The notes under the pieces are model-generated. The model was not told the origin of the DNA. It ran no database searches and was given only the letters and a program-made list of their open reading frames with translations. Positions 1 through 63,008 of a stretch of DNA of 64,000 nucleotides are shown here, piece after piece. Position 1 is the first letter of the stretch; each line of letters begins with the position of its first letter. The position numbers and the translations under genes were made by a program. The stretch lies in contig OY725499.1 in assembly GCA_963281255.1 (NCBI GenBank), positions 4,173,148 to 4,237,147 of the forward strand, in the 5' to 3' direction. This DNA is from Aphrocallistes beatrix. Its lineage: Eukaryota > Porifera > Hexactinellida > Sceptrulophora > Aphrocallistidae.

Positions 1-2770
1 GTACGAGCAGTGTCTTACTGCTATCGATAGTACTACCTAACACATTTGATAATGCTGTGCTGTTAACGGCTTGTGTGGTTGGATGAGGGGCACAAGGTGT
101 TTGGGTTGGAGTGGTTGGGGTTGGACAGACAGTTTGTACTGAGTGTGGAGAATGCGTAGAAAGTAGCCAAGCTAAATTATAACCTTGACTCATTATCTCA
201 ATCTCTGTCAAAAGGGCTATACTGTTTCTCTCGAGGATTATGTCGAACTCGACATACTGCATAGTAGAATTCACTTCAACTTCTATTGTGTATAGATCGC
301 CTGTACTATTTGTGGTTGTGATGGGATCGGTAGGTCCATCCGTTAAACTGACTCGAGGCGGTAGAATCACGTCTCCAAAGTACATACCTGTGTATCCGTG
401 TATCACGATCGTCTCCACGTTAAACAGCTGAGTCAGTGTTATGACAAAGTGGTTTCTACAGACAAGCATGAAATCTGCAACGTTAGGACAGTCGAATCCA
501 ATGCTGAGAGCATCAGTAATGACGTCTATCGACGGAGTTCCTATAGGAATTTACAGGAAATTATCTCAACGGATGCTGTAGAGTTCGGATGAGATGTAGA
601 AATAGTGATTTCTTTAGCAGAATTAGAATGTATTTCTTTTAATCGAAGACTGCTGGCTATTTTAATGAATATTTTCAAGAATTAAGGTGTAAATTTGAGT
701 TCAAAGTGGATCTATTGATTTGCAACTAGGACATTAGGATCGAGCGATCATTGATCGCAATCCTATTTTGTCGATCGAACGAGGATCGGTGGTCTTTTTT
801 TTCGAATGATCGGATGGAATATCGCGATCTTTTTTATTCCATTGTTGTATTATAATACGTAGTGTCAAGAATTCACAATTGGGATATTTTCCAATATAAA
901 TTTGGTGCAATATTAATAACAATGGGTTGAGATTAGTTAGTTCGTAATGAACCGATATCATACATGCCAACCTGAGCCATGATAAAAGCAGGACGCAGCG
1001 TTGAAATTCGCGGGACATGACGGGACGCAATAGAGAAGTATTATACATGGATTCAAAAAAGGTGGGACATAATAGGGAAATTTCATGTAAAAGCGGGACA
1101 CTCGAGAAAATTAGTTCAATAGAAGAGTGAAAAAAGCGGGACGTCCCGCCAAAAACGGGACAGTTGGCAAGTATGCGATATCCGTATTAGCGGGCCCGTA
1201 AGAAGCACTCCAGAATATCTAGTATTGTTGTATTGGATAGACAAGGTTAGCATAGCAGGGATTCTATTGGGCAGATCTGATTATATTCAGAACAGCTGGA
1301 ATTCATTTTGAACTATCTTCATATAATATTCGTGTGTAGTCATTGTATGCACATTTTTCAAGTTGTTTGTATCTAACCAGAATTATTTTTCTCTGCTTCT
1401 ACATAATGAAACTATGCAGGATTGAATTAAAGGGAATTCATAGAAGATTGAGTTGTTTCATATTGTACGTACAATACGATAACGAGACGTTTGCTATAAT
1501 CTACAAAATGGAATGATATTCAAAGTACTGAAGTCATCGTATCATCTGACCTGATCAATATGATGGAGATACACTACACAGAACCAAGGTAATATACTAT
1601 GCATACACTTTCATTCTTATTGCTTTACGTAACAACCATAGAGAGAGAGTTCTACATTATTCTAAGAGAGAGTCAGAAATCTTATCATTTTGCATAGCTT
1701 ACATTAAATAACGTATTTACTTACCAGTGAGTCCATCCATCAATATTCCTATTCCCCCAGAGCAGTAGAGATAAGAGCTATCGCATATGCCTGTCTCTAA
1801 GTAGACTGGGTCTGTAGGGTTGAAGTCGGGTAGCAGGAAGTACCTGGTGAGGTGGTAGAATATTTGTAGGTTGGATTGAGTGTATTCGTAGCTCAGCACC
1901 TCTCTTTGGATGTTAGGCACTGGACAGCCATACAGCTCGAACTGGAGGCAGTACAGTGTCGAGTTTGTGACGTATCCACCAGTTCTTGTTATCTAAAATA
2001 GCACTCATTAGATGGATACGATGACTCTTTCATATTACATATTTTTACATACAAAATCAGTAAGGGCACACATAGAGTAATAAAATATTTATTTAATTAT
2101 GACGAAAATGAATTTTGTGTATTTTGCATTAAAAAAACTTTAATAAGGTTTCGGTTTCAATTAATTCAGAAGCTTCAGGTATTTCTTTTCATATGTACTT
2201 CACTTTTCTATTAAAAACTGTGTTTTATTCAAACAATTATTAAATAAAAGTATAATTTTTTTTAGTTCGTGGACCCTGTATTCAACTTACTATTATTTTA
2301 TCAGCTAACTGTACAGGAATTCTCAATCTAATCTGTCTATCACCACTCTGTATCGGGTACATCCTACCAGGAATGCCTATGCCTCCCTCACTGCCTCTGT
2401 AGCTGTATCTGACCTCGTACTCTGACAGGTTCAGAGCTGTCTCATTCTGACACCTCGCACTGACTGAGGCAGCTGTTCGTATCTCGATTGCGGTTATGTA
2501 GTAGCCGAGTTGATTCCTGATAACGAGGCTTGAAAGTGCGAATTCTACTGATCTGGAGTTATTCGTAAAAGTCCATGCATTGGTTGTCTCTCCCAACAAT
2601 GGCAAGTCTGCAAGTATCCTCGAATTATCGCTCATTATTTCAGTATAAGCACTTCCCTCTTTTAAGAGAGAAGAGAGGACTGGGCTAGAGCATTGTAGCA
2701 GTTGACTATTCACAAGTGAGGTATAATAGAGTGCAAACAAGAAAACAATCAACTTTTTGTTTCCTCTCAT
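1..2770 (-). CDS. Receptor A: DDR-like ectodomain receptor (partial, 3' end outside window)
   Basis: Three exons read on the minus strand: 2770-2291, 1992-1725 and 540-1 (continues past the edge). Exon 1 starts with a signal peptide (MRGNKKLIVFLFALYYTSL) and holds a beta-rich domain containing NLSEYEVRYSYRG. It ends before GTAAGT at phase 0. Exon 2 begins ITRTGG, passes YCLQFELYGC (the classic end of an F5/8 type C, discoidin, domain) and finishes GGIGILMDGLTG before GTAAGT at phase 1. Exon 3 opens after TATAG as GTPSIDV and carries the second discoidin-like fold (FNVETIVIHGYTG, then LLTEIEIMSQGYNLAWL) and the start of a Thr/Pro stalk. The membrane helix and tail lie outside the window, so presence or absence of a kinase cannot be judged for this copy. 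It is the most DDR-like minus-strand member because it keeps the ELYGC cysteine. Role, by family inference: cell-surface ligand or matrix recognition. Confidence 0.72.
959..1175 (-). mobile_element. 217-bp MITE, 6-bp TSD (copy 1), in intron 2 of receptor A
   Basis: Its ends are inverted: CATACATGCCAAC on the left, and GTTGGCAAGTATG on the right, which reads CATACTTGCCAAC on the other strand. It is flanked by CGATAT on both sides (953-958 and 1176-1181). The body contains repeated GGGAC/GTCCC blocks. A second copy of exactly the same length, in the opposite orientation, lies at 31802-32018 with its own 6-bp duplication. No transposase is encoded. I do not assign the superfamily. Confidence 0.8.
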
Positions 2771-3060
2771 CTTTCTTGATTCTACATACTAGAGAGCACC
2801 ACTTGATTCAATATATATTTAATTCCTTCCAACTTCATTAGTACACTCTATTAAGTGAATTAGTATGCACTACGCACATCTGTTGAACTAGATCATGTGC
2901 AACCCAGGATATTCAGTTACTAAAATTAGATTTGGACATAACTACAAATCTTTTAGGATCAATCTTAATTATATATTATCCAACAATGGATTAAGGATTT
3001 TGTTAACTACATACTAAACAGGTAGAGCTTCTGTGTAATAGAATAACCAAGTCTAAAAAT

Positions 3061-3314: not shown

Positions 3315-4595
3315 TCAATGTTTCAGAGCATCGTACTCAGAGAATTCTCCTTCTCTGTTAAGAGCTAACTGCTCAAACTCCTTCGGCGAAAATGCTACTT
3401 CTTTGTAAAGTGGATTATCCCTCATATCGTAGTAGAGTGGACTCTCGTTCTGAAGGGAATCCCTCTCGAAGCTAGGTGTCTCACTCCCTTGTTCGATTTT
3501 CTCTTCATCCTTTTCTTCTCGAATCGTATCTTCACAGTTGCTATTAAAACTGTATGTCCGTATTTGTAGCGATGTTTCTGCGGTTTTAGTCCCTGACATT
3601 ATCTCTTCAGTACTCATGTATAAATGATTTTCAGAGAGATTTCCAACTGCATATTGGTTCTCAATTGTGACTATATTTTCACCTAGCTGATTGTCATGTG
3701 TTGTTCTAGTAGAGACATATTGTACAGATTCTATCAAGCTTTCTGAGCTGATGAATGCATAAGGTGCGATTGGACTGGGTAACGCTTGCGAGTGCTTACC
3801 AATAGAAGTTTGTGATGGAGCTGTATTCAAGTTCTTTACCATACTGTGTGTATATGCTGATAGCTTCAATATCTCATTTTGCTGCTTCAACTTCCTATAT
3901 TTGGCGATTGAGTAAATGTTAATTGCGATTGATACGACTAGAATTGCGAGCAATACCGCGATGAGCAGTGAGAGAGTGATTGATATGGTATATCCAGGTG
4001 GAAATTCAGTTGTAGTTGTGTTTGAGGTTGCATTGGGCATCATATTTGTTTGGGATTCAGTTTGCTTCTTGAGCAATAGAGTGTTGCTATATTTCCTTTA
4101 GAAATCCAATATATAATATAAAGGTATAGTTGTAGGCTCCGGGAGGATTGGCCATGGCCTATCAATAAGCTATCAGATGTTAGTATCTCCCATTAAAACT
4201 ACTTAGCATTGGGATACATTCTATCATTGGCTTATATCCCAAATTTGTATACCTTGTCTATACCAATCTCTCTTCCAAGTCTACACTCCTGAAGGTAATT
4301 CTCCATGATAATATATCTCAACATTACTTTACTTAAAATTTCCAATATGACAAAAATATCTCATACGAGTATGTTGTTTCATTTATAGGTCCCACTATCA
4401 AATGATAACTTATGACAAATAGTTGTACTTTTTAACGTAAGTAAATTAATAAAATAAAGGCGATAATTCTATATATAATCAACAGATTAACATAAAACGA
4501 TGAGAATATTCCTTTTTTTTAACTTCAAATAATATATAATCTCACCAGAACCTGGTACAGAGCGTTGAAGTGTAGATAAGGCTATATAAATACAT
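3315..4595 (-). CDS. Receptor B: membrane helix plus tyrosine tail with no discoidin ectodomain
   Basis: The main exon, 4095-3315, encodes a short Asn/Thr-rich segment (NATSNTTTTEFPPGY), one membrane helix (ISITLSLLIAVLLAILVVSI), a basic stop-transfer (KYRKLKQQ) and a tail of about 200 residues with NESPLYYDMRDNPLY and the terminal EFSEYDALKH. It aligns with the tails of C and E. The N-terminal discoidin folds are missing: upstream of 4095 there is an acceptor (CTAAAG) and then no ectodomain. A candidate first exon at 4595-4546 (ATG, reading MYLYSLIYTSTLCTRFW across the junction) ends at GTGAGA and joins in frame. That exon is homologous to the non-coding exon 0 of other members, so the join is inference. 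The alternative start is the ATG ATG pair about 36 nt inside the main exon. It may be a decoy or adaptor form of the receptor, or a decaying gene whose tail is still open. Confidence 0.5.
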
Positions 4596-4599
4596 ATCA

Positions 4600-5990: not shown

Positions 5991-5998
5991 TTCATAAG

Positions 5999-8900
5999 CT
6001 AATGCTTCAGAGCATCATAGCTAGAGAAGTCTTTGTTGTGAGCAATCTCTACTTCTGGGTAGATCGGATTGTCCCTCATCTCGTAAACTTGACTCTCATT
6101 TTGAAGTCCATCCTTTTCGAGGCCAGGTTTCCTTCCTTCTTGTTCAAGATTCACTTCCTTATTTGGTGTTCGGTCCGTATCTTGATAGTTGCTATCACAG
6201 CTTCTAATCGGAGTTTGTAGCGTCGTTTCTATTGTTTCAATGCTTGTAGTTACATATGTATTATCTGAAGGATTTACTGACAAAGTTTCAATAAAAGGAT
6301 TAATTTTAACTTTACTCATCCCAATAATTTTATCGTGGTTTTCATTATTTAAGTCCATTGGATTTCCTGTGGAGCTTTCTGGTCCTATTGTCGTGTACAT
6401 TTCATCAGGATTGGGTAGTCTGCGTGAGTATTGAGATTGTTCCTGATTAGTAGGTTGTAGGAGAATTCCATTCAAATTTTTTAATACTGTATTATATGGT
6501 TGTTGCTTCACTAAACGTTTTACTTTTCTATATTTAATGGATAGATAAATACTTAATATAGTTAATACTATAATTACCGTTAGTGTTGCACTCAAAATAA
6601 GCCCTAATGTTAGAGTGGAAACTCTGAACGTTGAATTTTCAACAATAATTAAAGTTGTGACTGTTGGAGTTGAAGTAGTGGTCTCTAACGATTCAATCTC
6701 GAACAGTGCTATGTTGATTCCATTACTGAAAACTTCGACTTCACTTAAAGAAAGTATGTGACTCGGAGGAATGTTCATAGAAAGAAATATTTTATCTGTC
6801 GTTCTGTTTATAGGAATTTCTATTGGATAATTGTCAGAACGAAATACGTCACTTATTGAGTCTGTTCGTATATTGGGCTGTATTATGATAATTTCCGGAA
6901 CAACTATCATAAGGAGATTTGAAATTCGCCCATATATTATTATGTGAGACACATTCTCTTGTCCAGTTAGTAGAATTCTCAGTGGATAACTGCAGTTTAT
7001 CGTAGTATCATCACATCTCCATTCAACAGTCATTTGAGTCTCGCTACCACCAGTAGGATTTCCTGGAAAAATTCCAATAATTTGCAGATTCTTGAAGTGA
7101 TCAAAATATTTTATTTATTAAAGCACTATAATTTTTGTTTGTTTGTTCGAATTGTTTGAAGAACAGGCAAATCGTAGAGAAAAATTGGCATGCTGGTATC
7201 AAAGGAGTGCCTGCATTTTTCCAATACCATATGTAGACATTTGTCCAAATTTTGGATGTTGGCTTTGTCCGACAACTTTTCCTATATTTACCATATTTCG
7301 GATGATTTCGAGTCATAGCGGCTAAAAACCGAGACAGCTACAGACAGTACAAGCTTGTACATAAGCAACGGCTGTAGTACAAAACCCCATGATTACATTG
7401 TCATGCACCTAAAATGCCATGAAATCACGTGAATGCTCTAATTCTCCACCTCAAAAGTATCCTTGTGACCTGGTTTCGCACTCAATTCTACAATTTTTCA
7501 AAATATTTCACACTAAAATTTTCACATTTCTCAGGAAAAATGAAATATTTTCAAACCTTTTCTAGCCATTATATATATTTTATAGTTGTTAGTTGTGTCA
7601 TACTCGTACAATTAATTCGATTGTGAGAGTGAACAATAACTACTATATGATAAATATTTTTACAATAGCTAAGAAGAGTAAACAAATTAAAATATGCTAG
7701 AGACTAGCTTTTAATATTGGATTTGGGTTTTTTAGGGGTATATATTCCGAAAATCATATTTTCGAAACATTTCGATAATTTGTTAGTTTGTCTTCGTTAT
7801 ACAATGGATGCATAAAGCGAACAAATTTCTGGTAAAGTAATCAATATAAATAATCAATATTATGCATCTGTATGGGCCTTTTTTGATATTAGCAGGCGGT
7901 TGCAGGGCAACTCTGCGGACAGAAGTGTTTAGCCGCGTTTGCAATGATTCTACTTTAACTACAGTACCTGTGTCCATGAGTCGTCCTCTTCCTCCATAAC
8001 ACACTTCTCCATTACATGTTCCAGTGTAAGTTTCGTCACTTATTAAGTAAGGCTGTGCAATTAGATAGCTTAGTACTGTCACTCTAGGAGTAGTGAATCC
8101 TCTGATTCCGTATCTGACATGAAATACATCATTACTGGTGGGAGGCCTTGATATCTAGATACAGAAATATCACAATAACTAGCTTACTATCACAATTTGA
8201 AAAATGTATTGCAATAGATATCATACAAAATTGAAGAATGTTCATTTTATTTAAATACCAAATAATTGATGGATGTAGAACAGTTAATCGTTCTAGGGTT
8301 CCGAATCATTGGGAGGGATTTGGAATTTAATTATTTTAAATATACTTTCTTACAAGTATATATTTAACTGTATTATTACATAGAGAGTCCCATTAACTTT
8401 AATTAAGACTCACCTCACCAGTCATCCAAATTGATAGCCAAATCATGGACTAAACTGGACCTACGTGCCCTAAGTCAGCGGTTTCCTACCCGGGTCCATT
8501 AGCCCTTTAGTTTAGTGGCGAAATAATCCCCTCATATACTGGATTGGGAAGTGTTTCCATTTTCTTGGATTGGTGATGCTATATAAAATGCTGTGTTACT
8601 CTGTAAGCACACCCAAACCATCTGTGGGAGGGTATAGGCCGGGGTGGTTAAATTTAATATTGGGATGCAAATTGAGGAATTTAGAATATTTGGCTCTACC
8701 TAAGAGCACCTAAATTTATTTGGGAAATAGCACTCCTCTACTGTAGTACTAAATTGAATATCATCATTATTCAGATTTACTTACCGACAGTTCTTCAAGG
8801 ATTATTAATGGACTGATCTCTACTATTATTACAGAATCATTTTCAAAATCCACTGGAGTTATAGATATTTCAAGTTCTCTTAACTGTGCCAATCTGTTAG

Positions 8901-9207
8901 TATTTTCGAGTCTGTACGTGATAGAGTATTCACTTAGATTGGCTTCACTCTCTTGACCTGGAAGCGCTATACCAATGCTTGTAACTACGTAGCGGTATAT
9001 ACAATCCTGAGGGATTATACTTAGAAGTATTTCAAAGTTAGTTTGATTGAGTTCCCAAAACCCAGATTCCGGTGATGCGATGGGAATTGGTAGTATTTCT
9101 CCGCATAGAAATGATTGTGTTTCAGCCAACGGTTCAGTTGCCTGTATTAGAAACTTCTCATTCACCAAATAAAGGAGGATTAGTATGGAAACAAGAATTG
9201 TACGCAT
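5999..9207 (-). CDS. Receptor C: kinase-less DDR-like receptor, type-1 tail
   Basis: Exons 9207-8785, 8154-7968 and 7062-5999 give 557 residues. Exon 1 has a signal peptide (MRTILVSILILLYLVNEKFL) and the first discoidin-like fold (FWELNQTNFEI, YRYVVTSIGI, NLSEYSITYRLEN). It ends LEELS at GTAAGT. Exon 2 runs from ISRPPTSNDV to GTCNGEVCYGGRGRLMDTG, with donor GTACTG, which is weaker than in its relatives. Exon 3 starts GNPTGGSETQ after TTTTTCCAG. It has the second fold (EWRCDD, NCSYPLRILLTGQ, ILSLSEVEVFSNGINIALFE), a short Thr stalk, a helix near residues 354-378 (LTLGLILSATLTVIIVLTIL) and the stop-transfer KYRKVKR. The tail carries YTTIGP, MRDNPIYPEV (NPxY) and the terminal FSSYDALKH. No kinase follows the stop codon. 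Exon borders are consistent with paralogues D and E. Probably functional; ligand unknown. Confidence 0.78.
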
Positions 9208-9299
9208 TTTACACTGTTAATGTAGATTGAATTAGTTGAGTTAGTTACTTATACTCAGAGGATAGCCTAGTGTAATTACGTAGAACTATATCATCTTAC

Positions 9300-12328: not shown

Positions 12329-15300
12329 CTAATGCTTCAGAACGTCATAGCCAGAGAAGTCATCTTTGTTGTGAGCAATCTCTACTTCTGGGTAGAGCGG
12401 ATTGTCTCTCATCTCGTAAACTTCATTTTGAAGTTCATCCTTTTCGAGGCAAGGTTTCCTTCCTTCTTGTTCAAGATTCACTTCCTTATTTGGTGCTAGG
12501 TCTGTATCTTGATTGTTGCTATCACAGCTTTCTATCGGAGTTTGCAACGTCGTTTCCATTGTTTCAGTTAGGTATGAATTGCTTGTAGGATTTTCTGGCA
12601 AAGTTTCGATAAAAGGATTAGTTTTAACTTTACTCGTCCCAATAGCGTGGTTTTCATTATTTAAACTGTCCATTGGATTTCCTGTCGAGTATTCTGGTCC
12701 TACTGTCGTGTAGATTTCATCAGGATTGGGTAGTCTGCGTAAGTACCGCGAGTGTTCCTGATTAGTAGGTTGTAAGGGAATTCCATTCGAACTTTTTGAT
12801 ACTGTGCTATATGGTTGTTGCTTCACTAAACGTTTTAGTTTTCTGTATTTGATGGATAAGTAAATGCTTAATATAGTTAGTACTATAATTACCGTTAGTG
12901 TTGCACTCAAAATAATTCCTAATGTTATAGTAGAAACTTTGACATTTGAATCTTCACTAGCTAAAGTAATGTTTGTTGAAGTTGAATTTGTGATAGTTGA
13001 AAGTGAAGTAGTGGTTTCCAACGATTCAATCTCGAACAGTGCTATGTTGACTCCATTACTGAAAACCTCAACTTCAGTTAAAACAAGTCTTTTTCTTGTA
13101 GGAATGTTCATAGAAAGAAATATTTCATCTGTGGTTCTATTTATAGGAATTTTTATTGTATAACTGTCAGAATGAAATGTATCACTTATTGAATCTGTTC
13201 GTATATTGGGTTGTATCAAGATAACTTCCGGCACAGCTGCATTATTTGTGTTGAGTCCATAGATTATTATGTGAGATACATTCGCTTGTCCAGTTAGTAG
13301 AATTCTCAGTGGATAACTGCAGCCTATCGCAGTATCATCACATTTCCATTCAACAGTCACTTGATGCTCGAAACCTACAGTAGGATTTCCTGAAATAATT
13401 CCAATGATTTTAGTCCTGAAATAATCAAAATATCTTATTTATTAATAACGCGCTAGGATTTATGTTTGTTTGTTTATTTGAATTGTTTGGAGAACTGGCA
13501 AATCGTTTGGATATAAAAATTGGCATGTTGGTGTCAAATGATGAGTCACTCTTTGCGATTAATTTTGAATATCTCGCAAAGTTTCGCACCTAAATTTTCA
13601 CACTTCACAGGAAAAATAGAATACTTGTATTATTTTACTGTTTCTAGGTATTATTATAGCTTCACTCTCACAATAGAATTCATTTAATATGACACAACTA
13701 TAAAACTTCCATTGTTAATAATGCTTCAAAGCAATAAACTATGCAAATACTTGTACGTTAATTCTCTTACAGCGTATAAACTTTAAAAAAATTATATATA
13801 TTTTCACAACTTTTAATGAATTTTGAAAATATGAAGAGAATAGTTTTCAATGGTTGAACTGGATTTCAGGAGTATAGATTCTGAATATCGTATTTTCGAA
13901 CTGAATAATGATATTTTTTACAATAGCAACAAAATGTAAACAAATTTAAAAATGTCGGTCGACAAACCGATAGTGCAGCTCCAGGAAGTAACTCGAAGGA
14001 ACATGAAATATAAACATCGGAATACATCGGGAAATACTCAGAAAAGGAAATACTTTAGGTCATTCTAAGTGAAATTTGGATTTTACATATTAAAATACTC
14101 TATATAATTAGTTGACAGCTCACTTTTAGTTTAAAATAAGAATTTTTTTATATGTGTGAAAATATGTAAATATCAAAATTTAATAGCTCATAAAATATTC
14201 TAATTATTTCTTTCAAGGTTCGAAAATCGGAATCAACATATTAAAACATCCTATATTATATATATATATATATGAACTGGGAGGTGCTAGAAATGTGAAA
14301 TTTTGCACACAGGTAAATAATAATGAGTCTACGATTAGGTTCAAAGATCTAAGCGAAATCCTCACCTCGCCGAGATAGGTGACAAATTGTGCTGACCAAT
14401 GAAATTCGTTTCTTTTATAATGCAAATACATTAAGATCAAACAGTAGTGACTTATGCATACAATCAAAAGGACTATTTGTGATTGAAATTCATGGGTTCA
14501 TGTGAGAACCAATCAATTATCAGACTTTTATAATGCGAATCACACGATTCAATTTCATATAAATGATTGAATACAACTATTTTGAGTCTACAATTTGATT
14601 GTTAAAAGTTATTTATGATCGAATTGATTGATCATAGCATATAACGCACTTTAATTGTTGTTAACGACATGGACTGAAATTGGTTGATTATTCAAGTATA
14701 ATAGAAATATGCTAGAGTCTAGCTTTGAATATTTGATTTTGGGATTTTAAGGATGTAAATTCTGAATATATTTTTGAAACAATTCAACAATTTGTTTGCT
14801 TGTAAGTAAAGTAATCAATATTATGAATCAGTATGAGGTTTTGAATTATTTTATATTAGCAGGCGGCTGCAGGGCGACTCTGCAGACAGAAGTGTTTGCT
14901 AGCTGCACTTGTAAAGATTCTACTTTATCTACAGTACCTGTCTATGAGTCTTCCTCCATAACACACTTCTCCATTAGATGTTCCAGTGTAAATATCGTCA
15001 CTTATTAGGTTAGGCTGTGTAATCAGATAGCTTAGCACTCTAACAGTAGTGAATCCTTTGATTATGTATCTGACACGAAATGTATCTTGTGGCTCGAAAT
15101 TACCATTGCTGGTGGAAGATCTGGAAGAGGTGAGGGATATGGATATCTAGATACATTAATATCATATACTAACTAGTTTACTGTTTAAATTTTAATACTG
15201 GGTAGTAAATGTGTCTTCTGTATTGCGATAGACTTATCTTACAAACAAATAAAAATCGTTTTATTTAAGTACTGCAAATACTTGGCTGCTGTGCCGAATA

Positions 15301-15916: not shown

Positions 15917-16008
15917 TTTACACTGTTAATGTAGATTGAATTAGTTGAGTTAGTTACTTATACTCAGAGGATAGCCTAGTGTAATTACGTAGAACTATAT
16001 CATCTTAC

Positions 16009-23582: not shown

Positions 23583-23674
23583 TTTACACTGTTAATGTAG
23601 ATTGAATTAGTTGAGTTAGTTACTTATACTCAGAGGATAGCCTAGTGTAATTACGTAGAGCTATATCATCTTAC

Positions 23675-26553: not shown

Positions 26554-26673
26554 AATGTCCAATCAGATAGCTTAGCACTCTAACAGTAGTGAATCCTCTG
26601 ATTCTGTATCTGATAGGAAATGCATTATTCCTGGTGGGAGGTCTTGATATCTAGATACATTAATATATTATAC

Positions 26674-30127: not shown

Positions 30128-30222
30128 AATACCATATGTAGGCATTTGTTCGATAATATATGTAGGCATTTGTTCGATCATATATGTAGGCATTTGTTCG
30201 ATAATATATTTAGCATTTGTCA
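30128..30222. repeat. Short minisatellite, about 27-bp unit, three to four copies
   Basis: The unit contains TATGTAGGCATTTGTTCGAT. The orthologous intron position in C (near 7225) has a single copy, so it expanded in G. Confidence 0.8.
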
Positions 30223-32351: not shown

Positions 32352-32354
32352 TAA

Positions 32355-32450: not shown

Positions 32451-32457
32451 AAAATAT

Positions 32458-39262: not shown

Positions 39263-39354
39263 TTTACACTGTTAATGTAGATTGAATTAGTTGAGTTAGT
39301 TACTTATACTCAGAGGATAGCCTAGTGTAATTACGTAGAGCTATATCATCTTAC

Positions 39355-43449: not shown

Positions 43450-43459
43450 TTTAGCAATC

Positions 43460-46159: not shown

Positions 46160-46169
46160 TTTAGCAATC

Positions 46170-47412: not shown

Positions 47413-50400
47413 CTACTTATGCTTTAGGATGTTGTAGGCTGTGAACTCGCCATTTCCTCTTTCAGTTGCTGGAACAAAGTAGCTTCTTTCTTTAATTGAA
47501 CAATAAATATGCTTCATATCGCCGACCTCAGGTTTTATGGGGCTTAAAAAGTTCGATGAATTATATCCAACATTATCTTCCAATGGTGCTCCCAACTCAT
47601 TGTCAATTGAGTCAGTAGTATTCGGTGGCTGAAAAGCGACATTTTCAACCATCAACACACTGATGTCGTCATCCATGGAGCTACAGCTACTCGTTCTACT
47701 GCTCGGTGGTTTAAAAGCAACATTCTCAACCATGAGAACACTCAACTCATCATCGTCTTTAGGCGTTTCTTGTATGATAATACTAGGTAACGCCAGTCCT
47801 ACGCTTGCATTAAGTGGATATTTTTGATCTGCGTGTTCCTCTATGACTATTTCTGGAAAATCAGGTACAGATGGTTCTACATAAATATCATCAGTCGGGA
47901 TGACTGACGAATTTATCGCGACGTAATTGGGCTCATTAACCTGTACTACACCTAGGTTCGAACTATGCAAACTGCTCAATGGTAAGTCTGTGGATTGGCT
48001 TGTATTCGTGATAGAGTGGACCATTCTGTGGTTGTTATGTGTATGGTCGGCGTTGTATGCCATCTGTGGGGGATTAAGTGTGTCGTAAATATCGTGTCCG
48101 TATCTGGTTGACACGTCTAACATTGTCATGTCCGTTGGACGTCTTGCGTGGTAGAAATAATTTTCATTCTCGTTTCTACTTGCCTGCATTTTTTTGAGCA
48201 TTCTCTTGGTTGTTTGTTTACTCTTTGCAAGCCATACTATCACAATGATGCTGTTTATAACCAGCATTAATATTATGATAACAAGCACCCCTATTACTGT
48301 GAGGAAGTCAGATCTGCTGATGAATTGTTGCTCGCTGTTTCCTGATGCAGTTGTATTGGGTGATGACGTCATGCTACTTGTAGATAGTACAGTTGTGTTC
48401 ATTTGTAAACTCCCTGTAGTGACAGATTGAGGTTGCTGTGACGTCATTGCAATGGTATTTGTAGGTAAACTTTCCGTTACACTTTCCACTAAATCAGTAC
48501 GAGTTACGAACACTGATTGGTTTAATTCCGATTGGTTCAATCCTGTGAAGGTGTAACCAATATCTCGAGTCGCTATATTAATCCCGTTACTAGTAAAGAT
48601 CTCAACTTCTGAAAGAACGAGGCTGTTCCCACTCGGAATGGTCATGCGAATAACGAGTTCATCTGTGCTGAATTCGAATGGGAATGTTCGCGTGAATTGA
48701 TCAATGTCTTGGTCAACTAATTGCCGTTCAGCTGCAAATGGTACTGGCTCGCTATTCAAAGACGTTTGAAGTGTGATGATAGGATTCATGAACATTCCTC
48801 CACTGACTCCAGTTACTTGTATCCTCATGATGTCAGTAATGGAAGAGAATATGAAGTTGATGATGAAAGTACATGGATCACCCCCACTCACACATTTCCA
48901 TCTAACTTCTGTACTATCGATATCCGCAAAGTTTCCTAGAACAGTGAGACATTAACATTGTTTTCTAGTCTGTTATCCTTGGTACTGGATATTGTGAAAG
49001 AATTTATTTTCAAATTTAGCCATAGGACATTTTTTATTTATGTTAGGATATACCTCACACTTTTAGGGTTTCCCCGCCCAAAATATGAGTTAGCAAAATT
49101 CCTAGTCCGAATCGGATTGCTGACCTATGTTACTTAACATTAGTTTTCTTAGCATTGGGAATGACCAATGGATTGATATAGTATTAAACCTAACTAAATA
49201 CATATGTAAGTACTAATCCTATGTAGTATACTCTAATTTACCTTTCACTCCATCAGTTAGTCTTCCCTTCCCACCGAAACATCTGGCAGCATTACACAGT
49301 CCAGTGTATTCAGGTTCTGTATTGGGGCTTGGAGCACTCATATCGTAGCTGATAACTGCCTCCTGTGCTATTTCTGTACCGATGAGTCCGTACCTCATGC
49401 AGTACTGCCCTGTTGTACCCAGAGTTCTTATGATCTAGATAAGTAAATTGTAATGATTTGATGCTATTTAAACTTTTCAAAATAATTGAAGATTGGTCAA
49501 AAATATTTCTGTACTTTGATAGATTAGATTAAACTTACAAAAAATATCTACGCAAAGTTGTTTGGATGTAACTTATAACATTATTTTTCCTTAGTGGAAT
49601 ATTTTTAAGCTTTTATTTTTTTTTTAATTTTTTTTTTGTGTATTCCATTCCTTGTTTTTTTTGTAGTTTTGTTAGAAAATAATCGCTGCTACCTGTAAGT
49701 ATATTAACATTAACTAAGCTCGTGTATTTGCACATCTATGATCTACAGCTACGTGTGCCACTAGTTACAAGTTTGCGAAAATATTTTCTTAATTATTCAA
49801 TTTTTATTTCCACTCAATTTCACACCTATGTTGTATATATGTTATCTCGTTAAATTATCCTATAATATCCTTTGAATGCTCGAAAATGATTGCAAATCAA
49901 CTTATTTGCCGAATATTTTTTCTGGAATAAGTAGGACTCAGTTTCCTCGTAATCCGAAGTCTGATAAAAAATATATTTATTCATTTTGTGGGTAAATCAA
50001 TTCAATTAATTTCAATTATAACCAATGGATGAGAAAATATGTTGTGAATGGAATGTATTTAGATCATTGCTTATGATATAATCACTATGTTAATATTTAT
50101 ACTTCAATACCACATATAGAAATTAGAAATTAATTATTCAAAGTTACCATTCATTTTCAAGTACTTGACAAATTTATAGTGGACTACACATAAGTACGTA
50201 TGTTACTTTCAATTTGCTGGGTTTGAATGCTTTCAATAACTATTAATTTGAACCAAAGACTTTGATTTCCTATAGAAAGTCTATATTATTAGGAACTAAT
50301 TTCAATAGTGGTGTTACGTGAAGATATTTTGCAAAAAATATCTTGAAACCAGAAAAAATTTAAACGTATCATACGAGATATATTGCATTAATTATTAACC

Positions 50401-50907
50401 ATAACTATCGTTAATTTTATATTATTGTATCGTAGATTCAATCAGTATTCTATCCTAACTCACCTCAATACTATCAGCTGGGAAAGCGCTATTAATAGCT
50501 ACACTGACAAGGTCTCCATTGCTTGTTATTGGGAAGGAACTGAGTCGAGTTTGTCTCGACTCAGATTTCACCCTATACCTCACCAGATACTCCTCAATAT
50601 TCACTTCTTTCTCTTGAACACAGAATGCATTCTCTCCCGAGAAGACCTGTATCTCAATACTATCAACCAGAAATATATTAAAATCTTCTAATGTGAAGGA
50701 GAATGCAACATTTGGGCTCGTCTGGTTGATAATCCAGTAGACGTCTGTATTCGGAAGGGGAAGGCTGGTGGTATCGGACAATATCAGTTCGGTTCCTTGT
50801 GTTTCAACGTTGCTATTTTGGAGTATGTTCGTCCTCTCCGAATTTACTTGCAGAAACAAGTCTAAAATTAGAAAAATAATGACTTTCATTTTGCACGAAT
50901 AAAACAT
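47413..50907 (-). CDS. Receptor L: divergent kinase-less DDR-like receptor
   Basis: Exons 50907-50464, 49434-49242 and 48935-47413 give 719 residues. The signal peptide is MKVIIFLILDLFLQVNS after an optional six-residue start (MFYSCK). Exon 1 has WIINQTSPNVAFSF, VDSIEIQVFSG and NIEEYLVRYRVKS, and ends at GTGAGT. Exon 2 runs from IIRTLGTTGQYCMRYGLIG to YTGLCNAARCFGGKGRLTDG, with donor GTAAAT. Exon 3 opens GNFADIDSTE after TGTTCTAG, with VRWKCV, DIMRIQVTGVSG and LVLSEVEIFTSNGINIA. The stalk is Thr/Ser rich and the helix is near 424-448. The long tail has two near-repeats (DDELSVLMVENVAFKPPSSR and DDDISVLMVENVAFQPPNT), YDTLNPPQM, and the terminal FTAYNILKHK. NPLY is absent. There is a long first intron (49435-50463) and no kinase domain. 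Confidence 0.78.
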
Positions 50908-52510
50908 ACTTAGCAGGCTTCAAAGCGTCTCTTTATATAATTGGATCTGGCGCCAGGTTACCGATATGAGCCTATGGAACTCATTCACATCAATTCACGA
51001 TTCACCACTTAATTAAATGGTTTGAAATTGAATCAACTTTGGATCTGATTCTTAATTGCAATGCTTCCATAGAACTCGTGCTATCCTAGTGTGTGGTGAT
51101 GGATATATAGATGTAGTGTTAATTAACCCTAAGTATGATTGAATAGCAATGATTACACTGTATTCTCGTTACAGCACGAAGTGAAGAGGAAGTTGCATTC
51201 AAAGCACTAATACTAATGATTCGTTTAGAAGTTGTTACAATTACACTCTTGAATCAGATATACGGATTACAGCTGTGGTAAGGATTATGTATTATAATAT
51301 CTGATTTAAGATTGCGGATTTGACATATTGTATAAGTCAATTAAGTTCTGTTACAAACCTCATTAGGTATAAATTTTATACTCAACCAATCTTAGTTATT
51401 ATTGTTTTCAGAGATTGTAATTCGAATATAGACCTAGAACTGTGTTTTGTATAGTTAATATTGAGAAGTAAAAATGTGTCTTGGCACGCAGTAAAAGCCC
51501 TACTTCTAAATATTTCACAAATCCACTGAATTCATTATTAGAAATGAGAGAAGGTTTTAATTCGCAAGTTCAAATTAGGTACATTTTGCAAAATCCCCAA
51601 AATGACACTATTTTTCACATCACCAAAATCTGAAACAATTAGTCCTCAATGTGCACTGAGCTGAACATCCTATATTTCTACAAATTTAGTGTCCAAGGAA
51701 AATGTGTGAGCTAATTTATCCTAGAATTTGAAGACTCAGGAAAGATAATTTGAAAGGCAGTGGGCCCGATTGGCGATTTTAGCTACGTGTCAGGGGATAT
51801 TTTTTGACAATATTCACTATACAATACACAGTTCCAGGTCTTAGACTCGAAATATCTTTTAAAATCATTAATAATATTCGAATTATAATATCTAATGATG
51901 ATAATAACTAATTTTTAATAATTTTAAAGAATGTTTGAGTATAAAAAATTTATACCTAATAAAACTTGTAACAGAACTTAACTAATACCCTATACGATAA
52001 TAAAATTTTTTACCAATCGATTACTACTTGTTTAATACATTTAGATTTGTATTACGACGTTTGCTAGATTATCAGGGTAGCTTATGGGTATTATGAAACC
52101 TGGACTCCACTGCTATCGAGTTAACAAACTGATGCGTAGCTATAAAAACCTATTTTTGTATCTATTATTATAAAGGCTTCGAAATTCTATTTATAGGATC
52201 ACCATCAGTATATACTCTTTTGTTCCTTTATCATATATTTAAGCAAAAGATTCGTATCGATTAGAGTTTGATTGAGTGAATAGTGACAAAAATAGAATGG
52301 AATATCTTGAATTATGAGTTATAATTAGCAACTTTAAAAACTCAGGCAAAAGTAAACTAATACATTCAACACTATACAAAGGTAAACTCAAATGATCCAA
52401 GTACAAAACTAAACCTAACACATCTAATGATGCACTGCTCTCTACAGACATGCTAAAACAGACAGATTATAGAAGAATAGGAGAAAATACAAAATCAATC
52501 AAGCAGCAGG
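50908..52510. other. Intergenic DNA between L and M
   Basis: No gene seen. It contains the inverted-repeat element listed at 51326-51995 and is otherwise AT-rich. Confidence 0.5.
51326..51995. repeat. Inverted repeat, probable non-autonomous element
   Basis: ATTAAGTTCTGTTACAAACC with TAGGTATAAATTTTATACTC on the left recur inverted on the right (about 51930-51995). An inner pair, GACCTAGAACTGTGTTTTGTAT and its inverse near 51813-51840, continues the symmetry. The borders are approximate, and no clear target duplication was found. Confidence 0.5.
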
Positions 52511-55159
52511 TCAGTGATGGAGTTTGTCATAATCCTCAAAAACTACTTCTTTTTCAGGTATCTTCCCCAAATCTTCTTTTTGAGCCCTTGAAATCGAATC
52601 ATACTTACAATTGTCCCGATATTGGATTTCAGATCCAGTTCTCGGTATATCTTCTAAGTTAGATCGCGCTGTTGCATCTCCATCATAGAGAGGGTTCTCA
52701 TTATCCAAGCCGTCTTCCACAGGATTATTACGAGTTAACATACCAGTATTCCTAGGAGAGTCGAGCGAAGAATCTTTCTCTAATGACATAGATGCCTCCT
52801 TGATTCTGCGTCTTCCCTCTTCATGGAGGTTGATATTCCGCACAGTATTTAGCCTAACCACACTTGTACCTGATTTAGCATCGGTATAGTAATGATTTGA
52901 TCTTTCATTATCCGGTTTGTTTTCAAGCATATCTTCACATGTTCGTTTTCTTATCTTCCCCACCGAGATATCAAACTTCCACAGAAAGCGTAGAGTTAAT
53001 AAGGTCATGACAATCCCGAATACTACCCCAACAAACGCTGTTACAACCGGGATGACATACTGCAAAAAGTTTATCTGTGGGATAGCAATTACGGTGCAAG
53101 GAAAATTATTACTCAATTCTGGTGTCCAATAGTGTACTGTAATTTCTTGAATCGAAAAACTGCTTGCAGAGTTGAGGTTTAAAGTAAATGTGTCGATCAC
53201 TCTGTTCACTGTAAAAATCATTTCTTTGTCCTTTATCATCAAATTAAAACTTGGAGACGGAGTGATATTTCTTATCGACGTTGAGAAGTTGATTGTGATG
53301 GAACTTACTCCGACTGACTGATAGAATACTAATCTGAAATCAGCTGATCCATTCCAACTCAGAGAATTAGCTACAGATAAAGTACTTGTATATAATCCAG
53401 TATGTTTAGGAACAGAAAATATTAAATAATATATTTGTATACCATAACATTATATGTTTCATAATTATGCACATAAGGTACAATAGAGCAACAAATGATG
53501 ATGAATTTTATAAATACAGTCGACTCCGCTTAATATGGCCACTGGTTAATCGGGACACTTTTGGCAGGACTGGAATAGCTTTCACACATCACACAAATAA
53601 GCTAATACCAAATATTCTCGGCTAAAATAGGGTTCTCCGCTTAATCGAGCCAAAATGTCCTCTGACCGATGTGACCCTATTAAGCGAAATCGATTGTATA
53701 TTAATTTTTAGGAAATTCTTGTATAAGCGAGTATAGGCAGGCGCCCGAAGGACGTCTCCAGCGATGCGTAGTGCTTACTAACTGCACAAGCAAGCAAGCA
53801 AAAAGTTAATAAAATATGTATTTAATTTGTCCAACTTACTAAACACTCCATCAGTGAGTATTCCCAGTCCGCCACTGCACCAACTACCATTACAGTTTCC
53901 TCTGTAGCTGGAGTCTGGCTCGTTGGGAGTAGTCGTATCGTAGGACAGCAGAGCACTGCATTCATTTGGAGCTGTGCTGCAACCGTAGAGCTCATACTGG
54001 ACGCAATATCTAGTTCCCTCTAAGGGAGTCAGTTTTGTGATCTGTGGAATACAGAGTGGTAAATACATATTTTCTCAAACTGGTTGATAACAGTTACAAA
54101 ATAAATACAGTCAGGGTCGCTTATTATGAACCCACTTAATGTGAACATTCGTTTATCATGAAGTAACCTCCTGGTCCCAATTTCAGTTTTTAGTTAGGAT
54201 TTGTATTGAATCAAGTTCGCTTAATGTGAAGTATCTCTATTATGAAAATATTTTTTGGATAAGCGACCCTGACTGTAACTTTATTTTCCATGGGATGACT
54301 ATTGATACAATGAGTTTTAAAATAAACAAAATCATTTTAATGCAAACTAGAGCCATGCAAATCTTTTCAGTTCTCCTGAATATACATTTAACTCTGACAT
54401 TACAAAAATATTGTGCATGTAGGCATATCATATGCATAGACTCATTTAATTAAGTAAATGCTTTTTAGAGAAAAATTTTTATATTTGAACCACGTATTAA
54501 TATTGGCATTTTAATGAATTTAATTTTTATTGAACCAAAACACAAGTCATCATAATTCGACTCTTGTGCAATGCCATTTTCACATGGTAATGATATACAG
54601 CCTACATAATAATTATCGAGATATCGATTGTTCATCACCTCTCCCACTCAAACATTGTTCAGCAATATTTTACAAAAATCGATTGCTAATTAGTCTAGCA
54701 TATTGATGCTACAACCTCCGATCTACTCGGAAGTAAGTGCGTAGGACAACTGCTTACTCTCTAATAGAATGAACTCACTTCTACATTCCTTCCTTTTATG
54801 GGTGGGAAAGCTACTCGTATGGAAGTTTGGTTGAACTGCTCGAGGGAACTCCTAATCGGGATATTTACTGGTCTGCCATCAATTACCAGCTGGTATTCCC
54901 TCAAGTTTATACTGCTCTCCACGAAGGTGCATGGAGGTTCACTCCTTGTGTTAACCATGATGGCTAAACCTGTGAAATACGATGTTGCGAAATTGAGTTC
55001 GACTCCTCCATAAAGTCCGTTGATCAAAAGGAAATAATTAGGCGCTCGAAGAGAAGGGGATAAAGATGTTGCGGTAGGCACGAGACTATCGTTACAGGAG
55101 GGATTAGCTTCCACTGTAGAAAGGAGGATAGCTGCAATAATTGTTGTAAAAATTTCCAT
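52511..55159 (-). CDS. Receptor M: divergent kinase-less DDR-like receptor
   Basis: Exons 55159-54779, 54041-53840 and 53370-52511 give 480 residues. The signal peptide is MEIFTTIIAAILLSTVEA. The first fold includes YFLLINGLYGGVELNF and NLREYQLVIDG, and exon 1 ends NVE at GTGAGT. Exon 2 begins ITKLTPLEGT, has RYCVQYELYGCS (discoidin end) and GNCNGSWCSGGLGILTDGVF, and ends before GTAAGT. Exon 3 opens with a split codon, then NSLSWNGSADFRLVFYQSVG and FSIQEITVHYW in place of LSEVEVF. There is almost no stalk. The helix is near 299-325 (YVIPVVTAFVGVVFGIVMTL). The tail has NENPLYDGD, CKYDSISRA and the terminal FEDYDKLHH. With A and O it keeps the ELYGC motif that the C-K group lost. Both introns contain a Tigger-like MITE. 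Confidence 0.78.
53517..53696. mobile_element. Tigger/pogo-like MITE in intron 2 of M
   Basis: The left end CAGTCGACTCCGCTTAATAT and the right end, read inverted, CAATCGATTTCGCTTAATAG are flanked by TA on both sides. It is 180 bp and non-coding. Confidence 0.72.
54108..54275. mobile_element. Tigger/pogo-like MITE in intron 1 of M
   Basis: The left end CAGTCAGGGTCGCTTATTAT and the right end, read inverted, CAGTCAGGGTCGCTTATCC are flanked by TA. It is 168 bp and of a different subfamily from the one in intron 2. Confidence 0.75.
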
Positions 55160-55337
55160 TTGTTATTTCTGTTCAGATGTATCTAACTCTACTTATACTT
55201 ATTCTCAACTTTCAATATGGTACTGCCTACTATCTACATCCAGTTCATCATGAAATGAAATCAAACAATACATCGTTTGTTTACATTTATTTGTTCTTTG
55301 TTTCAGAGTACACACAATAAACATTACAATTCCTGAG

Positions 55338-57084: not shown

Positions 57085-60722
<3,638 letters not shown>

Positions 60723-63008
60723 ATGTTTATTTTAACAATTTTAATAATATCCTTTATTGATGCATTTTCTGGTCAATACGCTTCTAAGTGTAATCTACCA
60801 TTGCTGAACAACTGGTCTATCGATTTGAGAGTCACTGATTACAGATATCCAGCTGACCACGTCAATATTGACAGATACAGTGTTGAAGATACGGTTGAAT
60901 TTGATGATGATAAGTTCCCATTTAGGGAAGATTTCGGTTGGGTCTGGGAGCTATCAGGAGGTAGAGACCATGTGGATATAGGGTTTACCCGAGCCATAAA
61001 GATTACAGGATTGCTGGTCAATTATTGCGAAATAAAAAATGGGAAATGTCTGGACAGGCCAACTGATTCTACCCTCAGGATTCACTACAAGAATGGGAAG
61101 GGTGTATTAACTCAACTCAAAGATGGCTATTTCCGTGATGGCGATATTATGTTGGAAAAACTGTATCGTACTCCGAGGAAGGTTAGTTTCAGCTCCATTG
61201 AAACCAATCTCATCATGGTAAGTATATAAATCACATACTGAGTATAAATATATATCGATATTAGTAACAGGGTGCTAGATTCAAATGTCCAGATTTAATT
61301 CATAGATTTCCTAGTATGCATACGTTGTAGAAATATGAATAATCTGCTTTAAGAATAGCAAGAACAAACCAGAATTGAGTAATTAACCAATAAAATTGCA
61401 ACTAGGGTTTTCAGTTAAATTCTTTTTTGGTCTATGCATTAATCAAGTCTATTTTCCATCTTTAAAGGTCTCTGTAGACTCACTCACAGGAATTGATAGG
61501 AATAAAGATAATTTCATTCAGCTGGAACTATATGGCTGTCTCAGTCTACCACCAAGTATATACTCCATCAACCCGCACATATTACATTATGATCTAGCCC
61601 CTAAGTTCGACGCCCCATCTCCAGACGTCTCTACAGAGGTAGAGGGTTGGTGCGGCGAACTGAGTTGTAACGGAATAGCATCCACTCTCATTGATGGCAT
61701 AATCGGTAAGTGCTTCTATCTAAGTATAATAATAACATTGTATTAATATAAACATGATGTGGTATTGTTTCTTTTTGAAGTTTGGATGGACAATAAGGTT
61801 AAATGGAAAGAAAATTTGAATATTTCATTATTTATAATTTCAACATAAAACAATTTTTAAAATTGGCTCTCTGGTTAATTTTGCAATCTCGAGGTTTCAC
61901 TGAATCAGACAATATACTAATATTGATTAATACAGCTGATTTCATTATAGATTACAATGGAAAGAGCAGCCCTCATCTTGTTAACACATGGAGCAATAGA
62001 GGCATAGATGGACAAACCATTGTTGTCAAGTTTTTCTTCAATGGCGTATACAAGCTGGATTCCATGGTGCTCCATGGAATGGCGGAAAGTACCAATAGGA
62101 CATGGTTCGGCGATCTGTCAATAAATGGAAAAACGTCTAACCCGATCACCACATGGTTAGGATCGGGTTACCATTCCATACACGTGCTAGGAGGTTTGGA
62201 AGCTGGTGTCATTACTTTGGAATTTCGGATGATGGATGATCATACCCTTGCTTTGTCCGAAATAGAATTTTTTGGGATTGAGAATCAAACCATTAGCGAT
62301 GAAGGTGGGAGTGAAATAGAACCATGGATGATTGGAATTATCCTATCGGTCATATTCTTTGTCATCATTCTCTTAATTATTATTCCAATCATTATTTCGG
62401 TGAGAATTCTCTATATTCGCACGAAGAAGCAAGCTGTGTACTTCCCAGTTGCACCACAAATCGAACAATCACGTGCATCTACCAGCAATCTCTTCTCATC
62501 GCAGGAGGTAGTTCGCTCGATTGATAGCATCAAACCGATGCCAGAGGAAACAACCAACCAGAATTCAGCTTCAGATGCGATTGGAAGAACAGACACAGGT
62601 GTCCCGAATAATTACTACGAGCGGATTCCAACTTTACCGACCGCGCAGGTGAAAGATCTCCGTGAGTCGCTAAAAATAAAACGATCTGCCTCCCCCCTCC
62701 CTCCCCTAGACAGAGCCCCTCCTGACCCCACCAAGCTCCCGATCTACGCCCTGCCTGTCAGGAGGAAAGAGAATACCGCGAACAGACTTGAACTGCTCCG
62801 TCCGCTATCGCAAGACGGGTATTTACAGCTGTTGGAATCTAACAGTGTAGACAACACTGGGCAAGAGCAAGAAAGTCCTATGTATGATTACGTTAGGCCT
62901 AGGTCTGCAGTGTTCCCATTCGGTGATAACTCAATGGCAAAAAGTCACTCTGATTATATACAGCAATCATTCTACGTTAACTCGGGTGAAAATAGCACTA
63001 ACTTGTAG
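60723..63008 (+). CDS. Receptor O: plus-strand kinase-less DDR-like receptor with proline-rich tail
   Basis: Exons 60723-61217, 61468-61705 and 61894-63008 give 615 residues. The signal peptide is MFILTILIISFIDAFSG. The first discoidin fold starts at CNLPLLNNWSI, passes FGWVWELSGGRDHVDIGF and ITGLLVNYCEI, and ends in exon 2 at FIQLELYGC. The linker contains ILHYDLAP, CGELSCN and LIDGIIG. Exon 3 opens GFTESDN after CTCGAG, with WSNRGIDGQTIVVKFFFNGV, LDSMVLHGM and LALSEIEFFG. This WSN...F.F block is the closest in the window to the second domain of DDRs. The helix is near 389-418. The tail has NNYYERIP, SPLPPLDRAPPDPTKLP (possible SH3 ligand), DGYLQLLE and SPMYDYVRP, ending STNL, and lacks NPLY and YD.LKH. 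Intron phases are 0 and 1 as in the other members. The frame closes without a kinase domain. Confidence 0.82.

Follow-up and report, generated by a model that had tools for sequence, protein, structure and literature searches.

Kinase-less receptor genes with a discoidin domain receptor-related ectodomain form a tandem cluster in the glass sponge Aphrocallistes beatrix

We analysed a stretch of 64,000 nucleotides, here called the window, from the genome of the glass sponge Aphrocallistes beatrix (contig OY725499.1, abbreviated C13, positions 4173148-4237147; the assembly comprises 100.5 Mb in 28 contigs). The window carries a tandem cluster of receptor genes whose ectodomains are related to those of discoidin domain receptors (DDRs). 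Its open receptor models, each of three exons, number nine: O on the plus strand and A, C, E, I, J, K, L and M on the minus strand. Broken copies occur as well. The features are listed below, with positions without a contig name counted from the start of the window and with two tail types that are defined further on by their tyrosine motifs.

Gene A, 2788..1 (-): exon 1 2788-2291, exon 2 1992-1725, exon 3 540-1 onward; 598 aa; tail with NPLY; exon 3 crosses the window start and is open up to a stop at C13:4172639.
B, 3318..4097 (-): open frame with a transmembrane segment and a tyrosine tail (NPLY, SEYDALKH), without the two folds.
Gene C, 5999..9216 (-): exon 1 9216-8785, exon 2 8154-7968, exon 3 7062-5999; 557 aa; tail type 1.
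D, 12329..15925 (-): broken; exon 3 open, exon 1 split over two frames by a frameshift, exon 2 degenerate.
Gene E, 19880..23591 (-): exon 1 23591-23148, exon 2 22314-22128, exon 3 20955-19880; 565 aa; tail type 1.
Fragments, 24985..26650 (-): exon 2 piece 26650-26522, exon 3 piece 25322-24985.
H, 29045..34180 (-): exon 1 34180-33749 and exon 3 29964-29045 open, no exon 2; ectodomain parts of the C type fused to a tail of the K type.
Gene I, 36290..39271 (-): exon 1 39271-38846 (C/E/H type), exon 2 37986-37776 and exon 3 37692-36290 (both J type); 676 aa.
Gene J, 41143..43458 (-): exon 1 43458-43039, exon 2 42722-42512, exon 3 42434-41143; 637 aa; tail type 1 with two NPLY, YTDM and SSYDSLKH.
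Gene K, 44235..46168 (-): exon 1 46168-45749, exon 2 45636-45426, exon 3 45343-44235; 576 aa; J-type ectodomain, tail type 2 (YEEV twice, YSRV).
Gene L, 47413..50919 (-): exon 1 50919-50464, exon 2 49434-49242, exon 3 48935-47413; 719 aa.
Gene M, 52511..55162 (-): exon 1 55162-54779, exon 2 54041-53840, exon 3 53370-52511; 480 aa; YELYGC, NPLY.
Gene O, 60723..63008 (+): exon 1 60723-61217, exon 2 61468-61705, exon 3 61951-63008; 596 aa; LELYGC.
Z, C13:4172368-4169417: continuation of the cluster beyond the window, with the plan of the window genes.
Q, C13:4255933-4252677: continuation on the other flank, with the same plan.

Outside C13, we refer to R1, R2, R1b and R2b on contig C18, to C6a and C6c on contig C6, and to C1, C4, C16 and C20 as one gene each on the contig of that name. 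In all nine spliced window models the exon 1 donor is in phase 0, the exon 2 donor is in phase 1 and no internal stop occurs. C and E have an odd exon 2 donor (GTACTG), which makes these two models less certain, and the exon 3 acceptor of O, that of C4 and the exon 1 donor of R2b were each picked among several.

The nine models, with A added to the intact members recognized by an initial annotation of the sequence, share the plan which that annotation had described, namely a signal peptide, two folds joined by a linker, one helix and a tyrosine-bearing tail. Exon 1 codes for the signal peptide (assigned by eye) and most of the first fold, exon 2 for the rest of this fold and the linker, and exon 3 for the second fold, a stalk of variable length, a single hydrophobic helix, the tail and the stop. 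The first fold ends in RY.I.G or ELYGC, and the linker contains two cysteines and DG or a near form of it. The ELYGC ending reported for A, M and O is matched exactly. Two further patterns proved somewhat less uniform than described: a linker ending in GG.G.L.DGV.G holds in its general form, with O lacking the GG.G, and a second fold ending in L.LSE.E.F holds generally, with M differing (IQEITVHYW). The proposed number of at least a dozen copies is reached only when broken copies and fragments are counted along with the nine open models.

We aligned nine ectodomains (C20, Q, Z, A, M, L, J, E and O, six of them from the window) as alignment A4, in which the C20 row, one of the nine, keeps an older exon 3 start that includes a dispersed repeat. 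Searched against 177635 PDB sequences, the A4 profile gave two matches at E<=1, both of them human DDR1: 4AG4 at E 7.5e-11, where the alignment starts midway in the discoidin (DS) domain, spans the linker and enters the DS-like domain, and 8PE9 at E 1.5e-4. Direct comparison of A4 with the human DDR1 ectodomain by hhalign yielded a probability of 96.8 and an E of 2.4e-10 over 221 columns, reaching the end of the DS-like domain. The Pfam model PF21114 (DDR1-2_DS-like) matched six of the nine A4 members below its cut-off (J at E=0.0025) and was absent from the other three; in spliced R1 and R1b of C18 it scored 40.6 and 31.8 bits, above the cut-off of 27 bits. Searched in six frames over the whole genome, the same model returned nothing, though spliced R1 and R1b pass, and the control genomes were all without it. 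The F5_F8_type_C model reached E=0.003 in one of the nine members, below its cut-off, and the second half of the first fold aligns to DDR1. No PF00754 match above the curated cut-off was found in any of the eight C13 members tested (A, E, J, L, M, O, Q and Z); 31 matches to this model are listed for the genome, on C1, C2, C3, C7 and C9. A phmmer search of PDB with O alone gave chance matches only.

At the sequence level, these comparisons show that the window ectodomains are homologous to DDR over the last half of the discoidin fold, the linker and the DS-like fold. The relationship to DDR ectodomains that had been proposed at first is supported, and of the further likeness to the DDR juxtamembrane region the NPxY motif stands and nothing beyond it. 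The receptors could in principle be unrelated jelly-roll proteins that resemble DDR through chance motifs only, as the low identity among them (20-29% to the first A4 sequence) might suggest. Such a coincidence is scarcely credible in view of the profile, hhalign and PF21114 results, of an order of parts that is the same over two folds and of intron phases shared with the DDR kinases on C18.

The absence of a kinase from the cluster genes, which the initial annotation had also claimed, is seen in the stop within exon 3 and in the surroundings: tblastn with the R1 kinase detected no tyrosine kinase within the 134 kb of C13 around the cluster, the search returning one serine/threonine kinase and four matches at E over 2. 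Complete DDR kinases with an ectodomain of this kind, for which a genome search had been suggested, do exist on contig C18. A genome search with the C20 ectodomain led to this DDR region at C18:66-97 kb.

R1, C18:84009-80089: 997 aa, seven exons without a stop.
R2, C18:77226-71660: 1012 aa, seven exons without a stop.
Third DDR-type kinase set, C18:86.1-85.0 kb: read as kinase exons.
Serine/threonine kinase gene on C13, window 55338-56738 (-): between M and O; first exon matching PF00069 at E 6.5e-41; TSSK-like by eye.

R1 and R2 have three ectodomain exons with phases as in the window genes, followed by a juxtamembrane exon and three kinase exons, the latter reached via a phase-0 donor ahead of the exon 3 stop. 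The R1 kinase matched PF07714 at E 2e-74, and the R1 ectodomain alone found 4AG4 first in PDB (E 9.5e-4). This kinase is closest to human DDR2 and DDR1 (2.6e-69 to 1.7e-65), ROS and Trk following at about 1e-50; unexpectedly, an entry named EGFR (9p9u, 678 residues) stood above the DDRs at 1.8e-72, with no single stretch passing alone. Of the 60 genome matches to the R1 kinase listed at E<=1e-18 (best 134 of 242 candidates scored), only the three exon sets at C18:71.7-86.1 kb exceeded 40% identity. Kinase-less genes adjoin these kinases, R1b lying between R1 and R2 and R2b beyond R2. Exon 2 of R1, R2 and R1b matches R1 at 90% or more, and identity between R1b and R1 falls to 47% in exon 1 and 30% in exon 3, which suggests conversion between kinase and kinase-less genes on C18. 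The best match of the human DDR1 kinase, C1:719723-720583 (49%), was rejected as a DDR, as its single long frame places an immunoglobulin (Ig) and a Frizzled-type cysteine-rich domain (by eye) ahead of the helix, as in ROR/MuSK. Elsewhere, short kinase fragments give matches of 40-57% to human DDR1 (C2:19837-20103, for instance, reaches 49% over 96 residues), and no DDR linker was found beside these fragments (C2:19837-20735 and others).

The splicing of R1 and R2 bears on whether the window genes might be decaying or truncated DDR genes, their stops being recent or the tail being an alternative end with kinase exons reached by splicing. R1 and R2 do pass from a like exon 3 into kinase exons through the phase-0 donor before the stop, and D, H, B and the fragments are broken. 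Yet no tyrosine-kinase exon was found within 134 kb, and of eight window exon 3 tails scanned (A excluded) three had one donor-like site at 7/9 and none had a higher one. The tail ratios of nonsynonymous to synonymous change (dN/dS), 0.23 for I-J, 0.42 for C-E and 0.62 for H-K, point to constraint, and kinase-less ends are kept in the glass sponge Oopsacas minuta and in further homologues. We therefore hold decay to be very unlikely.

We next counted DDR-type linker stretches in the genome and found at least 29, that is 12 on C13 (one in broken D), eight on C18, five on C6 and one each on C1, C4, C16 and C20, against three DDR-type kinase sets, about ten to one. Seven of the 29 stretches (C18:66809, 88432, 92046 and 96353; C6:5059902, 5069186 and 5076373) lie outside the genes read, and the 21 genes read with an open frame comprise two kinases and 19 kinase-less genes. 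In a tree of 22 ectodomains over 367 columns, R1, R2 and R1b grouped together at 99/99, C6a, C1 and R2b joined them at 89/84, and human DDR1, partial and on a long branch, fell on the R1/R2 side at 70/71. A single C13 clade (98/95) comprised L, C, E, I, J and K; the basal branching of the remaining members is weakly supported, and several long branches make it unsafe. A pair of cysteines in the linker is present in all 11 C13 members read and in C20, C4 and C6c, and is absent from R1, R2, R1b, R2b, C6a, C1, C16 and human DDR1. Since the tree split and this character agree, we place the window genes in a Cys-linker group distinct from the DDR kinases, and the sequences show them as a kinase-less group beside the DDR-type kinases of the same genome. 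The kinase may have been lost or may never have been gained, the window genes and the kinase clade separating on the tree, weakly at its base; R1b suggests that loss, or non-acquisition, also occurred within the kinase branch.

Like DDR1 and DDR2, the window receptors combine a putative DS fold with an ELYGC-like end, LSY, a GG.G.L.DGV.G linker, a DS-like fold ending LSE.E.. and one helix, and six of the nine window genes have NPxY. They differ in having no kinase, in the linker cysteine pair, in a serine/threonine-rich stalk in many members, in an N-terminal half of the DS fold that cannot be aligned and in at least 11 open copies at the C13 locus. With R1 and R2 they share three ectodomain exons (phases 0 and 1), a stalk, a helix and a tyrosine-bearing juxtamembrane part; unlike the window genes, R1 and R2 add four exons coding for the juxtamembrane region and a DDR-type kinase, and have no linker cysteine pair.

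That DDR kinases in this genome carry a related ectodomain raises the possibility that the window genes encode matrix receptors or co-receptors. These would recognize collagen or some other matrix ligand as DDRs do, form hetero-clusters with the C18 DDR kinases and serve as phosphorylated docking subunits or as decoys, and their expansion would serve matrix diversity rather than self-recognition. The position of kinase-less R1b between the kinases R1 and R2, and of R2b adjoining R2, would fit, as would a fibrillar-collagen C-propeptide gene in the genome (E 2.4e-26). In human DDR the collagen-binding loops sit in the N-terminal half of the DS fold, and it is this half of fold 1 that could not be aligned; we therefore make no claim that the DDR collagen-contact loops are conserved. 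The linker cysteine pair distinguishes the DDR kinases from every one of the 11 C13 members read, and the conserved tyrosine motifs would be superfluous for pure decoys. Two human DDR1 isoforms without a functional kinase have been suggested to be decoys (PMC10785288); like the window receptors, they have the DDR ectodomain and helix, and they differ as splice products of one gene rather than separate genes with tails of their own. On balance, a matrix role is conceivable and somewhat doubtful.

The tails themselves are rich in recognizable tyrosine motifs. Tail type 1 (C, E, I and J) has NP[LI]Y and a C-terminal S[SG]YD[AS]LKH, with YTDM in I and J, and tail type 2 (H and K) has YEEV or YEEI and DYEEVNVKDLENKVQ, with YSRV in K. 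NPxY is found in A, C, E, I, J and M and in none of K, L and O. The end of B, NPLYKEV...SEYDALKH, resembles tail type 1, and no Pfam match at E<=0.01 was found in B. NPxY is a motif of the phosphotyrosine-binding (PTB) docking type, known from DDR1, and YEEV, YxxM and YxxL are of the Src homology 2 (SH2) docking type. For motif statistics we used 17 of the 19 tails read, leaving out C and I, which nearly duplicate E and J, and 2000 shuffles. Yxx[LIVM] occurred 50 times against 22.0 in shuffled tails, NPxY 8 times against 0.6 and YxxM 10 times against 2.8, with 0/2000 shuffles as high in each case. In C13 alone (9 tails), NPxY occurred 6 times against 0.4 (0/2000) and Yxx[LIVM] 28 times against 14.4 (1/2000). 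YxN was not enriched over all 19 tails (9 vs 11.1). In C16 and three homologues, four of the five tail tyrosine columns are invariant, compared with 42 of 210 other columns (p=0.008), and the conserved motifs are YMTM/YETV/YLTV, Y[AC]TL, YVDM and Y[MV]SM.

We then compared silent-site distances (dS, by the NG86 method) between parts of the paralogues, using Fisher tests on rounded counts. J and K differ by a dS of 0.08-0.12 in exon 1, exon 2 and the ectodomain part of exon 3, and by 1.7 in the tail. For C and H the ectodomain parts give 0.10 and 0.08 with a saturated tail, and for H and K the tail gives 0.19, with 1.7 and 0.75 elsewhere. I and J stand at 1.9 in exon 1 and at 0.09-0.21 in the remainder, and I and E at 0.19 in exon 1 and at 0.94-1.10 elsewhere. 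The five exchange contrasts yielded p=8e-10 to 3e-35, those of J-K, C-H and H-K ranging from 4e-11 to 3e-35. Two switches were located with blastn:

Switch in I, 38058..38575 (-): in intron 1, from C/E/H likeness to J; last short H match at 38418-38352.
Switch in K, 44683..44705 (-): within the transmembrane helix; 90% likeness to J upstream of it and 90% to H downstream.

The ectodomain parts of J and K, and of C and broken H, are 90-93% identical and sit on two unrelated tails, an arrangement typical of paired receptors, J-K being the sole intact pair of this kind, as H has no exon 2. The distances show, as far as sequence can, that tandem duplication built up the C13 locus and that its paralogues swapped exon 1 and entire tails, and this exchange is how near-identical ectodomains came to be joined to two tail types. 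For J-K, dN/dS was 1.23 in exon 1, 1.04 in the ectodomain part of exon 3 and 0.49 in the linker exon; outside the tail it was 0.34, 0.35 and 0.37 for I-J and 0.62, 0.67 and 0.24 for C-E, and the linker exon (exon 2) of I-K gave 1.12 on ten differences. Together with the tail values given above, these ratios make constraint on the tails likely and at most hint at diversifying selection on the folds.

Two members on other contigs have homologues in O. minuta. The C20 gene is 58% identical end to end to predicted LOD99_8263 (581 aa), gap-free at both splice junctions; this protein shares the kinase-less ending of C20 and agrees with the revised start of its exon 3. The intronless C16 gene (553 aa) is 45% identical to LOD99_14183. 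Further homologues are P0011-P0016 (exon-long frames) for C20, and P0006 and P0007 for C16. Two unlinked kinase-less members with O. minuta homologues therefore point to a stable class, and the homologues taken by themselves indicate a glass sponge other than O. minuta. A dispersed repeat around C20:1671076-1670930, at the exon 3 start of C20, is in frame in the public open reading frame P0010 and has dozens of similar places in the genome. A protein database search with J, a query that includes the serine/threonine-rich stalk, found the window's own frames only among the best 7999 candidates scored, and one with the A4 profile found C20-type proteins alone among the best ~8000. Discoidin, DDR and tyrosine kinase are not among the words in the main text of the O. 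minuta and Aphrocallistes genome papers, and among openly licensed papers we found no title on kinase-less DDR genes of sponges.

Taking these results together, we consider it probable that the cluster encodes type I single-pass signalling recognition receptors, with a DDR-homologous ectodomain and kinase-less tyrosine tails that another kinase would phosphorylate. With tyrosine motifs and no kinase of their own, the receptors would need a kinase in trans. Ligand binding or clustering would bring such a kinase to phosphorylate the tail, a C18 DDR kinase or a Src-type kinase being the candidates; the genome also holds many other tyrosine-kinase-like domains. The phosphorylated tail might then dock PTB proteins at NPxY or SH2 proteins at YEEV, YxxM and YxxL/I/V, and the two tail types might give different outputs in the fashion of paired receptors.

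Several observations weigh against this interpretation of the cluster as signalling recognition receptors. In the ectodomain, hhalign leaves the first 109 of 345 profile columns (signal peptide and start of fold 1) unaligned to DDR1, no Pfam model scored above its cut-off in the six window genes tested singly (A, E, J, L, M and O), and the C16 gene and its homologues are without any DDR match in Pfam. In the tails, strict immunoreceptor tyrosine-based inhibition motifs (ITIMs) occur in 8 of 17 and are not enriched (9 vs 6.3; 370/2000 shuffles as high), YxxM is not enriched in the nine C13 tails alone (3 vs 1.7; 489/2000), and between C20 and O. minuta 5 of 8 tail tyrosines are kept against 47 of 122 identical columns, no clear excess. 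dN/dS exceeds 1 in three cells only (J-K exon 1, J-K exon 3 ectodomain part and I-K exon 2), on few differences and with no test; relatives of the C13 genes outside the species were not found in the J and A4 searches (best ~8000 candidates each); and phosphorylation of the tails by a DDR or Src-type kinase is a step that we infer.

Paired receptors such as KIR have alike ectodomains on two kinds of tail, Hydractinia Alr proteins mediate homotypic allorecognition, and paired tails are known also from anti-pathogen receptors, which tempers the comparison. By analogy, an allorecognition role is possible, in which the cluster would be a fusion-control locus of a syncytial sponge, with polymorphic paired receptors resembling Hydractinia Alr or the Botryllus fester co-receptors (FcoR) and built on DDR ectodomains. 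The tandem arrangement, the exchange of modules, the two tail types on near-identical ectodomains and the want of C13 relatives in other species (best ~8000 candidates per search) would all fit. So would the tails, Yxx[I/L/V] being called the 'core motif' of Botryllus FcoR tails (PMC12065747), where the receptors are likewise clustered, of type I and with different tail types. Those described there have Ig and sushi domains in place of the DDR folds, documented ITIM and hemi-immunoreceptor tyrosine-based activation motifs (hemITAM) and a histocompatibility role under study. The Hydractinia Alr complex likewise holds a large family of recognition receptors, with 41 members (PMC11999971), and a comparable role here would be by analogy. 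The strict ITIMs are not enriched in the present tails, and in its main text a demosponge graft transcriptome paper (PMC5450542) is without the words discoidin, tyrosine kinase and receptor. We regard allorecognition as possible, though rather unlikely.

The surroundings of the cluster contain other elements. At C13:4239993-4244737 lie three frames with a helix and a tyrosine tail and almost no ectodomain; the signal peptide and helix of two of them are Q-like (by eye), as is a short linker-like stretch (IPSYAMPAPDA) in one, and they are perhaps adaptor-like remnants. A frame with a helix and a tyrosine tail, without folds, lies at window 63429-63986 (-). A hAT transposase remnant (16675-16950 (-), PF05699 E 3.9e-10) and a long CT-type simple repeat that reads as (SL)n in three open frames (~57041-57241) lie within the window, and a mariner-like frame (C13:4237811-4238897, by eye) lies beside the cluster. 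Upstream are tandem multi-pass membrane proteins (C13:4134319-4143219) and a group of Ras/Rab-like GTPases sharing their second half (C13:4155342-4165278), both by eye. Other tandem F5/8 type C groups are located at C9:3.36-3.48 Mb and 3.80-3.82 Mb and at C2:134-144 kb; one frame read there is without the receptor plan.

To our knowledge, the DDRs described so far are kinases, and an animal has between one and a few genes for them. The genes described here present the DDR ectodomain as a module found also in the absence of the kinase, linker stretches outnumbering kinase sets by roughly ten to one and the kinase-less genes having tails of their own. They also place DDR-type kinases in a sponge, where the literature diverges, one survey giving DDR in human and fly only (PMC5395295) and another paper crediting sponges and ctenophores with DDR orthologues (PMC6485061). 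Glass sponge tissue is described as syncytial (PMC5684314). Our innexin search was empty, without a positive control. Speculatively, and with a low probability, the array of kinase-less DDRs with its paired tails might be a polymorphic, recombining self/non-self locus of glass sponges, derived from a collagen-receptor ectodomain, read out by DDR or Src-type kinases of the same cell and controlling syncytial fusion. The C13 cluster offers a concrete candidate recognition locus in glass sponges.

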